From Aequorivita sp. (GTDB lineage Bacteria; Bacteroidota; Bacteroidia; Flavobacteriales; Flavobacteriaceae), in assembly GCA_024637015.1 (NCBI GenBank), contig JAGXGE010000022.1, positions 1-64,000 on the forward strand: a DNA stretch of 64,000 nucleotides, written 5' to 3'. Of this stretch, positions 4,360-58,496 are shown in pieces. The notes under the pieces are model-generated. The model saw only the letters and a program-made list of their open reading frames with translations. It was not told where the DNA came from and made no database searches. Both the position numbers and the translations under genes were made by a program. Numbering within the stretch: the stretch's first letter is position 1; each line of letters begins with the position of its first letter.

Positions 4360-4371
4360 TTTTTTAAATTT

Positions 4372-4465
4372 TGTGGTCGAGCACAGTCCAAATGTCTGGT
4401 CGAGCGCAGTCGAGACCTTATTGATTGCAATCAACCCATAGTTCTCGACTGTGCTCGAACGGACA
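4372..4465 (-). repeat. Double-hairpin repeat of the GTCTGGTCGAGCGCAGTCGAGACC family
   Basis: In minus-strand orientation the unit at 4465-4393 is TGTCC + hairpin (TTCGAG..CTCGAA type), a 24-bp spacer, then GGTCTCGACTGCGCTCGACC + AGACA. A half copy (tggtcgagcacagtcc) precedes it at 4374-4389. Copies of the same family flank the GIY-YIG gene at 11109-11215 and 11621-11702. Confidence 0.75.
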
Positions 4466-9952: not shown

Positions 9953-11107
9953 ATGAACTACTTCTCCACCAGCTTTACCCTCGGCATTCTAGGCGGCGGG
10001 CAGTTGGGCAAAATGATGCTCTACGAAACCCGCAAGTGGGATATCCGCACCAGTGTTTTAGATCCTAGTGCCGAAGCCCCCTGCCGCATCGCTGCAGACA
10101 ATTTTCAGCAAGGCGACCTGATGGATTTTGAAACCGTCTATAACTTCGGAAAAAAGGTGGACGTGCTTACGTTTGAGATTGAAGGCGTAAATATTGAAGC
10201 CTTGGAAAAACTGGAAAGCGAAGGAATAAAAGTTTATCCCAGCGCCGCCACCCTGCGCAACATACAGGACAAAGGGGTGCAGAAACAGTTTTACAAAGAC
10301 CACCAAATACCTACTTCGCCCTTTAAGGTTTACAAAGACAAAAACGAACTGAATGAAGCCATAGTTCGCAAAGAGCTCCATTTTCCCTTTGTATGGAAAA
10401 GCTGCACTGGCGGGTATGACGGCAAAGGCGTAAGCATCATCCGCGAAGCCGAAGACGTAATCCCATTATCGGAAGGCGCTTGCATCGCAGAGAAATTGAT
10501 TCCCTTTAAAAACGAGCTGGCAGTAATCGTAGCCCGCAACCCTTCCGGAGAAGTAACTACCTATCCAGTGGTTGAAATGGAATTCCACCCAGAAGCCAAC
10601 CAAGTGGAATACGTAATCTGCCCCGCCCGTATAGACGAAGCAGTGGCACAAAAAGCAAGAGCCGTTGCCACCAAAGCCTCTGAAGCCTTTAAACACGTAG
10701 GCCTTTTGGCAGTAGAAATGTTCCAGACAGAAGATGATGAAATATTGGTAAACGAAGTAGCCCCCCGCCCCCACAACAGTGGTCATTACAGCATAGAAGC
10801 TAGTTACACCAATCAGTTTGAACAGCAAATAAGAGCTATATTAGACTTACCTTTGGGAAACACCGATAGTAAAGTTGGTGGCATTATGGTTAACTTAGTA
10901 GGTGCCGAAGGCCACACAGGCCCTGTAGTCTATAAAAACATAGAAAGTCTTTTGGCGATGGAAGGCGTAACGCCCCACATCTATGGCAAAAAAGAAACCC
11001 GCCCGTTCAGAAAAATGGGCCATGTAACCATAGTAAACAAAGACCTCAGCAAAGCACGAAAAATTGCCGAGGAGGTTAAGAAAACGATTGAGGTTATAAG
11101 TAAATAA
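9953..11107 (+). CDS. purK: 5-(carboxyamino)imidazole ribonucleotide synthase PurK
   Basis: 384 residues, the usual length. PurK uses ATP and bicarbonate to carboxylate AIR to N5-CAIR in purine synthesis in the cytoplasm. The N-terminal preATP-grasp domain has GILGGGQLGKMM; the ATP-grasp domain has FVWKSCTGGYDGKG, the conserved ARIDEAVAQKA region and EIVNEVAPRPHNSGHY-like residues (ILVNEVAPRPHNSGHY). Its product is the substrate of PurE at 11717-12205. In many Flavobacteria the two genes are adjacent; here a GIY-YIG gene and repeats lie between them. Confidence 0.96.
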   Translation: MNYFSTSFTLGILGGGQLGKMMLYETRKWDIRTSVLDPSAEAPCRIAADNFQQGDLMDFETVYNFGKKVDVLTFEIEGVNIEALEKLESEGIKVYPSAATLRNIQDKGVQKQFYKDHQIPTSPFKVYKDKNELNEAIVRKELHFPFVWKSCTGGYDGKGVSIIREAEDVIPLSEGACIAEKLIPFKNELAVIVARNPSGEVTTYPVVEMEFHPEANQVEYVICPARIDEAVAQKARAVATKASEAFKHVGLLAVEMFQTEDDEILVNEVAPRPHNSGHYSIEASYTNQFEQQIRAILDLPLGNTDSKVGGIMVNLVGAEGHTGPVVYKNIESLLAMEGVTPHIYGKKETRPFRKMGHVTIVNKDLSKARKIAEEVKKTIEVISK

Positions 11108-11108
11108 A

Positions 11109-11215
11109 TGTCCTCTCGAATAGACTGTACTGAGCGCAGTCGAAGTGCAGTCGAGAGGTCCTTATTAAGCAAGATCACAATAAAGAAGCAGGTCTCGACT
11201 GCGGTCGACCAGACA
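11109..11215 (+). repeat. Double-hairpin repeat flanking the GIY-YIG gene, copy 1
   Basis: It begins TGTCCTCTCGA two bases after the purK stop and ends GGTCGACCAGACA. There are two hairpins, the first ending CAGTCGAGAGG and the second GGTCTCGACTGCGGTCGACC, with an AT-rich spacer between. It is 25 bp longer than copy 2 because of an insertion in the first hairpin (11120-11145). Confidence 0.8.
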
Positions 11216-11245
11216 TATAAATAAAATAATCTATTCTGCTCTTAA

Positions 11246-11602
11246 ATGAAATCATATTACATTTACATATTGGAATGTTCAGATGGTTTACTTTATACAG
11301 GATTCACAAACAATATTTCGAGAAGATTTGATGAACACCAAAACGGATTAAACAAATCTTGTTTCACATACAAACGAAGACCTTTAGAATTAATATTCCA
11401 CCAAGAATTCAATGATGTGAAACAAGCCATATATTTTGAAAAGAAAATTAAAAACTGGAGTGCGCAGAAAAAAAGAGCCTTAGCAAACGAAGATTTCGAA
11501 ATGCTTCAAATATTGGCTGAATGTAGAAATATGACACATTCAAAATACCGGCCAACTGCTGAAGAGGTTTTGACTGCGCTCGACCAGACACGCAAATGTT
11601 AA
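11246..11602 (+). CDS. GIY-YIG nuclease family protein
   Basis: 118 residues. A single GIY-YIG domain spans about residues 4-85: YYIYILECSDGLLYTGFT carries the two motif tyrosines, RRFDEH (26-31) the catalytic arginine, and Glu65 (YFEKKIKNWS) the metal ligand. These residues suggest a metal-dependent DNA nuclease of the stand-alone YhbQ/UvrC-domain type. The last codons (ALDQTRKC) are read through a half copy of the flanking repeat (11569-11590), so the gene end is made of repeat sequence. It sits between repeat copies 1 and 2 and interrupts purK-purE. It may act on the repeat or spread with it. Confidence 0.88.
   Translation: MKSYYIYILECSDGLLYTGFTNNISRRFDEHQNGLNKSCFTYKRRPLELIFHQEFNDVKQAIYFEKKIKNWSAQKKRALANEDFEMLQILAECRNMTHSKYRPTAEEVLTALDQTRKC
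11569..11590 (+). repeat. Half copy of the double-hairpin repeat inside the GIY-YIG gene
   Basis: TGACTGCGCTCGACCAGACA matches the right half of repeat copies 1 and 2. It supplies the final codons of the nuclease gene. Confidence 0.75.
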
Positions 11603-11620
11603 CTATCTTTGAAACCAAAA

Positions 11621-11702
11621 TGTCCCCTCGAGCGCAGTCGAGAGGTCCTTGTGAAGCAGAATTACTATAAAGAAATAGGTCTCGACTGCGCTCGACCAGA
11701 CA
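11621..11702 (+). repeat. Double-hairpin repeat flanking the GIY-YIG gene, copy 2
   Basis: It begins TGTCCCCTCGAGCGCAGTCG and ends CTCGACCAGACA, in the same orientation as copy 1 and with a related spacer (cctt.t.aagca.aat..c.ataaagaa). It ends 14 bases before the purE start codon, so it forms part of the purE leader. Confidence 0.8.
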
Positions 11703-11716
11703 AAGAACCAATATAA

Positions 11717-12205
11717 ATGAGCAAAGTAGCAATCATAATGGGAAGTACCAGCGATCTGCCAGTAATGCAGGAAGCCGTAGATATATTAAAAGGATTTGAT
11801 ATTGAGGTAGAAGTAGATATCGTCTCCGCCCACCGCACGCCAGACAAACTTTTTGATTACGGAAAGAATGCACACAAACGCGGCATTTCTGTGATAATAG
11901 CCGGAGCGGGTGGTGCAGCACACCTTCCAGGGATGATCGCCTCACTGTCGCCATTGCCAGTAATTGGCGTTCCCGTAAAATCCAGCAACTCCATTGATGG
12001 TTGGGATAGCATCCTTTCCATCCTTCAAATGCCGGGCGGTGTTCCTGTTGCCACAGTTGCATTGAATGGCGCAAAGAATGCTGGTATTTTAGCTGCGCAG
12101 ATTATCGGCGCATCAGACAAATGTGTTCTGGACAAAATAGTTGCATACAAAGAAGGCCTTAAAATGAAGGTTGAGGAAGGTGCGAAAAAAATGAAAAACC
12201 GATAA
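11717..12205 (+). CDS. purE: N5-CAIR mutase PurE
   Basis: 162 residues, the normal size. PurE converts N5-CAIR to CAIR, the step after PurK. The class I PurE signatures are present: IIMGSTSDLPVMQEA at the N-terminus, SAHRTPDKLFDYG, IIAGAGGAAHLPGMIAS and GVPVKSSNSIDGWDSILSI. Cytoplasmic octamer in known members. A repeat copy lies directly before the start, so expression may depend on read-through from purK or on a promoter inside the repeat. Confidence 0.96.
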   Translation: MSKVAIIMGSTSDLPVMQEAVDILKGFDIEVEVDIVSAHRTPDKLFDYGKNAHKRGISVIIAGAGGAAHLPGMIASLSPLPVIGVPVKSSNSIDGWDSILSILQMPGGVPVATVALNGAKNAGILAAQIIGASDKCVLDKIVAYKEGLKMKVEEGAKKMKNR

Positions 12206-14928: not shown

Positions 14929-14963
14929 ACCTGAATTAAAAACTAAATATTCTTAATTCAGGT
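14929..14963 (-). terminator. Hairpin terminator of the M28 peptidase gene
   Basis: The perfect 11-bp stem acctgaattaa (14929-14939) / ttaattcaggt (14953-14963) has an A-run on its plus-strand left side, that is, a T-run on the minus strand. It therefore terminates transcription coming from the M28 gene; it may also slow the CHAP transcript. Confidence 0.75.
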
Positions 14964-15022
14964 CTCGTCTGTGGTCTATTAATCAACAACCCATTGCTTA
15001 TAGCCTAATGCTTAAAGCAATA

Positions 15023-58445: not shown

Positions 58446-58496
58446 TGTCTCCCCGAGCAGCCTGTCCTAAGCGGAGTCGAAGGGCAGTCAAGGGGT
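58446..58496 (+). repeat. Partial copy of the double-hairpin repeat family
   Basis: TGTCTCCCCGAGCAGCCTG followed by GCGGAGTCGAAGGGCAGTCA resembles the left half of the copy at 11109-11215 (extended form). The right half is missing. Confidence 0.55.

Follow-up and report, generated by a model that had tools for sequence, protein, structure and literature searches.

A small GIY-YIG nuclease gene of the marine bacterium Aequorivita sp. and the hairpin repeat that encloses it very probably belong together as a pair. The sequence comparisons suggest that enzyme and repeat are partners, with the repeat being what the enzyme recognises. We consider it likely that the nuclease would cut the hairpin, and it may be, though we would not count on it, that the enzyme drives the spread of the repeat. 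The sequences show the pairing itself, hairpins specific to individual paralogues, stem positions of the hairpin that vary in a compensated manner, and changes of the junction at which the gene resides. The window, by which we mean the whole 64,000-nucleotide stretch that was analysed, belongs to an assembly of 3.22 Mb in 39 contigs; its relevant features are collected in Table 1.

Table 1. Nuclease gene, neighbouring genes and repeat copies in the window, with the sites returned by the 26-nt scan
Feature	Position	Strand	Remarks
purK, left neighbour of nuclease, intact	9953-11107	+	Pfam: ATP-grasp, PurK_C
Upstream repeat dimer	11109-11215	+	TGTC...GACA, tags outside; right unit 11190-11215
UPF0213-type GIY-YIG nuclease gene, 118 aa	11246-11602	+	ORF between purK and purE
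Single unit within 3' end of nuclease gene	11565-11590	+	half copy by comparison 11565-11597
Downstream repeat dimer	11621-11702	+	units 11621-11646 (-), 11677-11702 (+)
purE, right neighbour of nuclease, intact	11717-12205	+	Pfam: AIR carboxylase
Dispersed copy	4370-4465	-	dimer 4393-4465 and partial unit 4370-4395
Degenerate repeat relative	58446-58496	.	TGTC start, TCGACTCCGCTT-like core; <18/26 match
Scan site	4370-4395	-	
Scan site	4393-4418	-	26/26
Scan site	4440-4465	+	
Scan site	11190-11215	+	
Scan site	11565-11590	+	
Scan site	11621-11646	-	
Scan site	11677-11702	+	26/26
Scan site	14960-14985	+	weak

The nuclease gene and its hairpin repeat

The protein encoded between purK and purE matches the GIY-YIG domain PF01541 with 66.7 bits, compared to a curated Pfam cut-off of 22.6, and its closest named homologue, from A. 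soesokkakensis, is 94% identical. Residues Y7, Y17, R27 and E65, which we take to be the catalytic residues of GIY-YIG enzymes (Tyr, Tyr, Arg, Glu), are invariant across 60 aligned nuclease rows. Alignment and tree omit 9 of the 69 related loci described below, in which the frame falls outside 85-140 aa (6 broken, 2 at contig ends, 1 with a mid-gene start), and the alignment also omits the near-duplicates L057, L081 and L084. The top structures for the family profile were the UPF0213 proteins 1zg2 (E 7.7e-18) and 1ywl (1.7e-13). With the AlphaFold model of the window nuclease (pLDDT 89) as query, Foldseek ranked the same two structures first and second at TM-scores, by query length, of only 0.45-0.48, followed by Slx1, likewise with modest TM-scores. 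Searches of PHROGs and NCBIfam with the window protein assigned no family. As the original prediction had stated, neither purK nor purE is broken by the gene between them; both are intact, and Pfam confirmed their names.

The repeat (repeat A) is a sharply bounded unit of 26 nt, AGGTCTCGACTGCGCTCGACCAGACA. Each unit forms a hairpin tagged with GACA (TGTC); in the double copies, two units stand inverted as a dimer whose tags lie outside. Two double-hairpin copies had been predicted to bracket the gene in the same orientation, and they indeed form direct repeats, 83% identical across 86 nt, with the PF01541 gene between them and the left unit of the upstream dimer modified by an additional hairpin. 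The reading that a third, half copy encodes the end of the nuclease was likewise correct: it specifies the residues VLTALDQT, after which only RKC and the stop codon follow. When the window was scanned with the 26-nt unit, eight sites reached at least 18 of 26 matches; of 20 mononucleotide shuffles of the window, 18 had no such site and 2 had one. The copy predicted on the opposite strand at 4372-4465 was recovered as a dimer and a partial unit, one of its sites being a perfect match. The partial copy predicted near the far end of the window proved to be a relative with a TGTC start and a similar core, but one so degenerate that it falls below the scan threshold.

Across the window's own genome, the 21-nt core of the repeat has 41 sites at up to 3 mismatches, and the reversed control pattern has none. 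Among 38 units from 30 loci of this genome, the inner stem, the loop and the tag are nearly constant, with GACA (TGTC reversed) present in 34 of the 38. The stem consists of six paired positions with a bulge and carries a 6-nt loop, its outer pairs being GC, TA or CG: pair 2-21 is GC in 26 units and CG in 8, and pair 3-20 is GC in 17, TA in 9 and CG in 8. The two outer pairs thus swap in a compensated way, which is the pattern that selection for a hairpin produces. Ten inverted dimers with tags outside occur in the 30 loci, a count that covers this arrangement alone. Folded as single-stranded DNA and compared with shuffles, the downstream dimer and the copy at 4372-4465 stood out clearly (z -6.2 and -5.7, respectively); the upstream dimer was not distinct from its shuffles (z -1.5), and two single units that were tried folded no better than shuffles and were not stable alone in the energy model. 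Tandem arrays of the core, with a spacing of mostly about 97-115 nt, were seen at G300:C1:874098-874880 and 3028786-3029604, in a genome with 69 core copies.

Pairing across loci, paralogues and genomes

A scan of genome contigs provided a set of 69 related nuclease loci. Counted at up to one mismatch, the core occurs 151 times in the 102.5 kb within 600 nt of the nuclease and 53 times in the 1161 kb elsewhere in the same loci, that is, 1.47 versus 0.046 copies per kb, a 32-fold enrichment. An inverted pair of units (up to 2 mismatches) surrounds the nuclease in 50 of the 69 loci; 9 have a unit on one side or in another orientation, and 10 have none. A frequent layout places one unit 20-50 nt ahead of the start codon and a second, inverted unit about 324 nt beyond that codon, which puts it at the gene's 3' end; in 21 of the 69 loci the stop codon falls in or beside a unit. 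As for the 10 loci lacking a pair, a stretch of N interrupts L103, L090 carries altered hairpins that are similar in sequence, and the remaining 8 (L094, L095, L097-L099, L101, L105, L106) are distant relatives of 43-57% identity from Brocadia, Nitrospirae, Deltaproteobacteria, Chryseobacterium, Chitinophagaceae, Leeuwenhoekiella, Ignavibacteriales and Melainabacteria. By eye, both flanks of all 8 distant loci hold different hairpins that bear a TGTC or CGTC tag, in orientations that are not constant, as exemplified by TGTCATCCTGAGCTTGTCGAAGGATGAC in the Nitrospirae locus.

A repeat-agnostic score for the inverted match between the two flanks of a gene, with genes of the same loci as controls, yielded a median of 20 for 66 nucleases and a mean of 12.5 for 991 control genes (p=1.8e-22; 3 of the 69 loci were excluded for short or N-containing flanks). 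The 99th percentile of the controls (22) was exceeded by 26 of the 66 nucleases, the other 40 not lying above it, and by 10 of the 991 control genes. Among the distant loci, five scored at, above or just under this percentile (L094 28, L097 37, L098 22, L101 30, L105 25) and three below it (L095 15, L099 20, L106 14). Chance clustering of the repeat at the nuclease is ruled out by the shuffles and the control genes. It could still be argued that these are ordinary intergenic repeats or terminators next to which the gene happens to lie, given that the hairpins reach into or abut the 3' end of the gene and may affect transcripts. Such hitchhiking is contradicted by the 32-fold enrichment, by the control genes and by the paralogue specificity described below, and we consider it extremely improbable.

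Flank matching was extended to 91 UPF0213-type genes of Bacteroidota, drawn from 29 best-match loci and 60 stretches chosen from the match list (88 genes without duplicates; 3 of 94 domains were dropped for short flanks or partial matches). Compared with swapped partners, a gene's own flanks ranked above the 95th percentile in 57 of the 91 and above the 99th in 31, and both tags stood beside the matched segment in 15. Own flanks also beat the mean of the flanks of same-genome paralogues in 43 of 53 genes from 15 genomes (p=4.6e-8), a sixteenth genome being left out for having a single usable gene. TGTC was the tag most frequently present on both flanks. YGTC-tagged hairpins occurred on both sides at 35 of 154 nuclease loci versus 17 of 975 control genes, a plain rule that misses bulged stems such as the one in the window repeat itself; the 154-locus set omits the duplicates L207, L221 and L226 (the genes of L190, L188 and L189), which the 91-gene set keeps.

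Individual loci illustrate this diversity. Genome G395 offers a second nuclease-repeat pair: two identical copies of GTCATGCTGAACTTGTTTCAGCATC, inverted relative to each other, enclose the nuclease gene (1534836-1535102). This hairpin family has 32 sites in that genome (up to 2 mismatches), including a variant in which one stem pair is swapped; the pattern was found in 9 of the 11 genomes asked and is absent from the window's own genome. The latter harbours two further small GIY-YIG genes with tagged hairpins. One of them, L001, is bracketed by a repeat beginning CGTCATTGCGAG, with 11 sites at up to 2 mismatches. The other, L003, has TGTC-tagged hairpins on both sides, and the hairpin beside it has a single match in the genome and is thus not dispersed. 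By eye, the hairpins of both genes start with TGTC or CGTC and end with GACA or GACG. Repeat A was not found within 1.5 kb of the other six GIY-YIG matches in the genome. Judged by such flanks, paralogues of one genome tend to have different hairpins, each better matching the two sides of its own gene. Two side observations concern related genes. A GIY-YIG gene of 104 aa (L005, G000:C10:13091-13297, minus strand) lies, by eye, between an apparent tRNA gene and an imperfect partial second tRNA copy, perhaps a tRNA-linked insertion, and adjacent GIY-YIG copies on the same strand, about 0.4-1.1 kb from start to start, occur in G013:C15, G244:C1, G418:C7 and G396:C86.

An IS200/RAYT-type tyrosine transposase might instead spread the repeats, the nuclease being unrelated, and the own genome does contain two PF01797 matches. 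This is very unlikely, as no repeat lies within 1.5 kb of either match (one of them on a stretch of only 1738 bases in all), the tag is TGTC, and the GTAG tag showed no enrichment when the 154 nuclease loci were compared with the 975 control genes. A RAYT was therefore rejected as driver of the repeat in the own genome, its Y1_Tnp genes having no repeat nearby. Separately, other inverted repeats were seen by eye near a Y1 transposase-like gene of 154 aa (L281, G000:C19:8417-8761), where the studied repeat is absent.

Repeat abundance was compared with nuclease presence in 299 genomes of the family. The exact 14-nt core is present in 51 of the 56 genomes with a close nuclease (E up to 1e-34; median 8 copies), in 23 of the 45 with an intermediate match (median 1) and in 48 of the 198 with a weak match or none (median 0), an association of p=2e-23 by a statistic that ignores phylogeny. 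Exceptions occur in both directions: 5 of the 56 close-nuclease genomes have zero cores, and G084 (26), G080 (25) and G156 (23) are rich in cores without a close nuclease. Where two genomes of a genus differ in the close nuclease, its bearer has more cores in 7 genera, fewer in 1 and the same number in 2. Inside Aequorivita, the link is weak. The median was 13 cores in the 7 genomes whose homologue reaches 82% identity or more (in one it has early stops, in another it is split across two contigs) and 9 in the 18 without (p=0.06), so that bearers are not clearly above non-bearers; 3 genomes with 59-67% homologues had been left out and, when joined to the bearers, gave p=0.056. Repeat counts thus track the nuclease across the family and do not clearly do so within the genus; an abundance unrelated to the nuclease, the outcome named as speaking against the original proposal, is excluded at the former level and not at the latter. 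Because the core is found in all 28 Aequorivita genomes and a close homologue in 7, the repeats persist without this nuclease. Either they outlive it, or another paralogue serves them.

An alternative is a host-serving interpretation, in which the hairpins would be selected signals used by the nuclease to regulate how single-stranded DNA is taken up or recombined, their spread not being selfish. A comparable role is reported for Ssn of Neisseria. The presence of the repeats throughout Aequorivita fits this interpretation, and so does the fact that nuclease lineages keep their neighbourhood (pur region, ALDH region) across genera. The nuclease is patchy, however, its close version occurring in 7 of the 28 genomes, broken copies are found in 6 of the 69 loci, and the junctions change, all of which a selfish unit predicts; we thus regard the host-serving reading as unlikely, if worth keeping in mind. 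Early in-frame stops were noted in copies L039, L076, L096, L100, L102 and L104, and repeat A still flanks these broken copies, except for L102.

Junction states and changes of site

Comparing purK-purE junctions, as originally suggested, uncovered empty, dimer-only and nuclease-bearing sites within one genus. Among 23 Aequorivita purE loci, the junction holds the nuclease in 5 (G000, G299, G310, G311, G312) and nuclease-less repeat dimers in 5 (G306, G308, G313, G317, G319). It is as short as 10 nt in G301 and G315, others have different inserts, and that of G302 lies off the contig. G313 carries a nuclease, 94% identical to the window's, at the junction of purE with dcp, an M3 peptidase gene according to Pfam, and the same purE-dcp site is used in Marixanthomonas, some Winogradskyella and others. 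Five Aequorivita loci (L149, L152, L156, L157, L159) have 565-1152 nt of other sequence between purK and purE, with inserts that by eye resemble Fic/Doc- or RhuM-type genes. The purK-purE junction seems to be an insertion hotspot.

Other nuclease groups occupy other places. One lies next to one aldehyde dehydrogenase gene, either preceding or following it (the proteins of the two forms are 85% identical), with RidA-like, GNAT or short-chain dehydrogenase genes alongside; a third group sits between methionyl-tRNA synthetase and tex. On a tree of 62 nucleases with 17 site labels, in which many forks are unresolved and one label pools 14 rows with unshared neighbours, 25 label changes are needed, against a minimum of 16 and a shuffled mean of 41.6. 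Lying between these two values, the count indicates that sites are inherited within clades yet repeatedly changed. Pairwise alignment of 15 locus pairs of species revealed no nucleotide-precise pair of empty and filled sites; 6 of the 15 showed repeat-bearing gaps, with junctions too diverged to read the insertion point.

The GIY-YIG fold is frequent among homing enzymes, and the dimer-only junctions (5 of the 23 purE loci) would be potential targets of a free-standing homing endonuclease that cuts gene-less repeat sites, homologous repair then copying its gene into them; in that case the repeats would be no more than targets and spread otherwise. What argues against homing is that paralogues and lineages have their own hairpin on both sides of the gene, so the repeat seems to move together with its gene and not to be a target conserved in the host, and we judge this scenario quite improbable. 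Of the self-spreading pair that was originally proposed, two parts hold: nuclease and repeat go together (50 of 69 loci, 32-fold enrichment, 299 genomes, paralogues), and the gene changes sites (25 label changes, junction states in one genus). The third part, that the enzyme would drive the spread, is somewhat less likely than not.

Proposed mechanism and relation to known systems

We rather favour the view, with a little less assurance than for cutting as such, that the protein is a small GIY-YIG nuclease specific for both hairpin and sequence, with the surrounding 26-nt TGTC-tagged hairpin as its predicted cognate site. Recognition and cutting are predicted from the pairing, the co-specific flanks and the fold. 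In the mechanism we propose, the nuclease gene and its flanking inverted hairpins would constitute one unit, and the dispersed dimers would be the same hairpin pair minus the gene. The enzyme would bind the hairpin in single-stranded DNA, as on the lagging strand, during DNA uptake or in an extruded cruciform, and nick it near the tag. Repair or recombination at the nick could then spread the dimers and occasionally carry the nuclease unit to another junction.

Bacteria widely carry short hairpin repeats, and for one large superfamily of these no enzyme was known in 2013. A nuclease gene bracketed by a matching repeat, with repeats that differ between paralogues, opens this question to tests with individual proteins and short oligonucleotides, and such loci supply many candidate sequence-specific single-strand cutters. 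Less expected seem the shift between neighbouring junctions, the occurrence within one genus of empty sites and of sites with dimers alone, and the paralogue-different repeats.

According to the parts of an earlier survey on which we draw (Di Nocera 2013, PMC3733652), REPs split into GTAG and CGTC superfamilies. RAYTs, which are HUH tyrosine transposases, go with the GTAG-tagged REPs; the CGTC repeats, often TGTC-tagged, do not flank tyrosine transposases and were, as of 2013, without a dedicated transposase. CGTC REPs are mostly head-to-head dimers with tags outside, their stem of 8-9 bp begins with AT and their loop has 4-5 nt, and CGTC-1 of Neisseria is dRS3 (same parts of PMC3733652). As far as that description goes, the window repeat is like the CGTC-tagged REPs in its TGTC tag, hairpin body and dimers with tags outside, and unlike them in its 6-nt loop, the missing AT at the stem start and its gene partner. 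The original comparison with REP sequences and their transposases is apt as logic, and not as homology. REP/RAYT units (REPtrons, REPINs) likewise place an enzyme gene between hairpins and have dispersed gene-less dimers; on the same partial description, their enzyme is an HUH transposase and their tag GTAG, whereas the window has a GIY-YIG enzyme and TGTC. The window gene also differs from E. coli yhbQ, whose product is presumably a UPF0213 protein: yhbQ overlaps yhbS by 14 bp, leaving no intergenic room for a hairpin downstream.

A literature search for GIY-YIG nucleases with palindromic repeats found no paper on them. Site-specific single-stranded GIY-YIG nucleases have reportedly been described as the Ssn family (by Chenal, Veyrier and colleagues, in Nature Communications in 2025), the enzyme of Neisseria meningitidis being said to cut single-stranded DNA at the NTS repeat and the family to comprise homologues by the thousand, each with a site of its own. 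The kind of system reported here has probably been described already. By that account, both systems would share a small GIY-YIG protein, a short palindromic repeat in many copies that also lies around the gene, and homologues with different sites. The window system, known from sequence alone, goes beyond the Ssn account in its site changes, its empty and dimer-only junctions and its likeness to the CGTC-tagged REPs. As a more speculative proposal, which we put forward tentatively, CGTC/TGTC-tagged REPs might be mobile substrates of UPF0213-type GIY-YIG nucleases. Together they would represent a second class of REPtron that evolved independently and whose GIY-YIG single-strand nuclease, in place of an HUH transposase, would spread hairpin dimers and relocate the gene that encodes it, in many cases no further than the adjacent junction of that gene neighbourhood.
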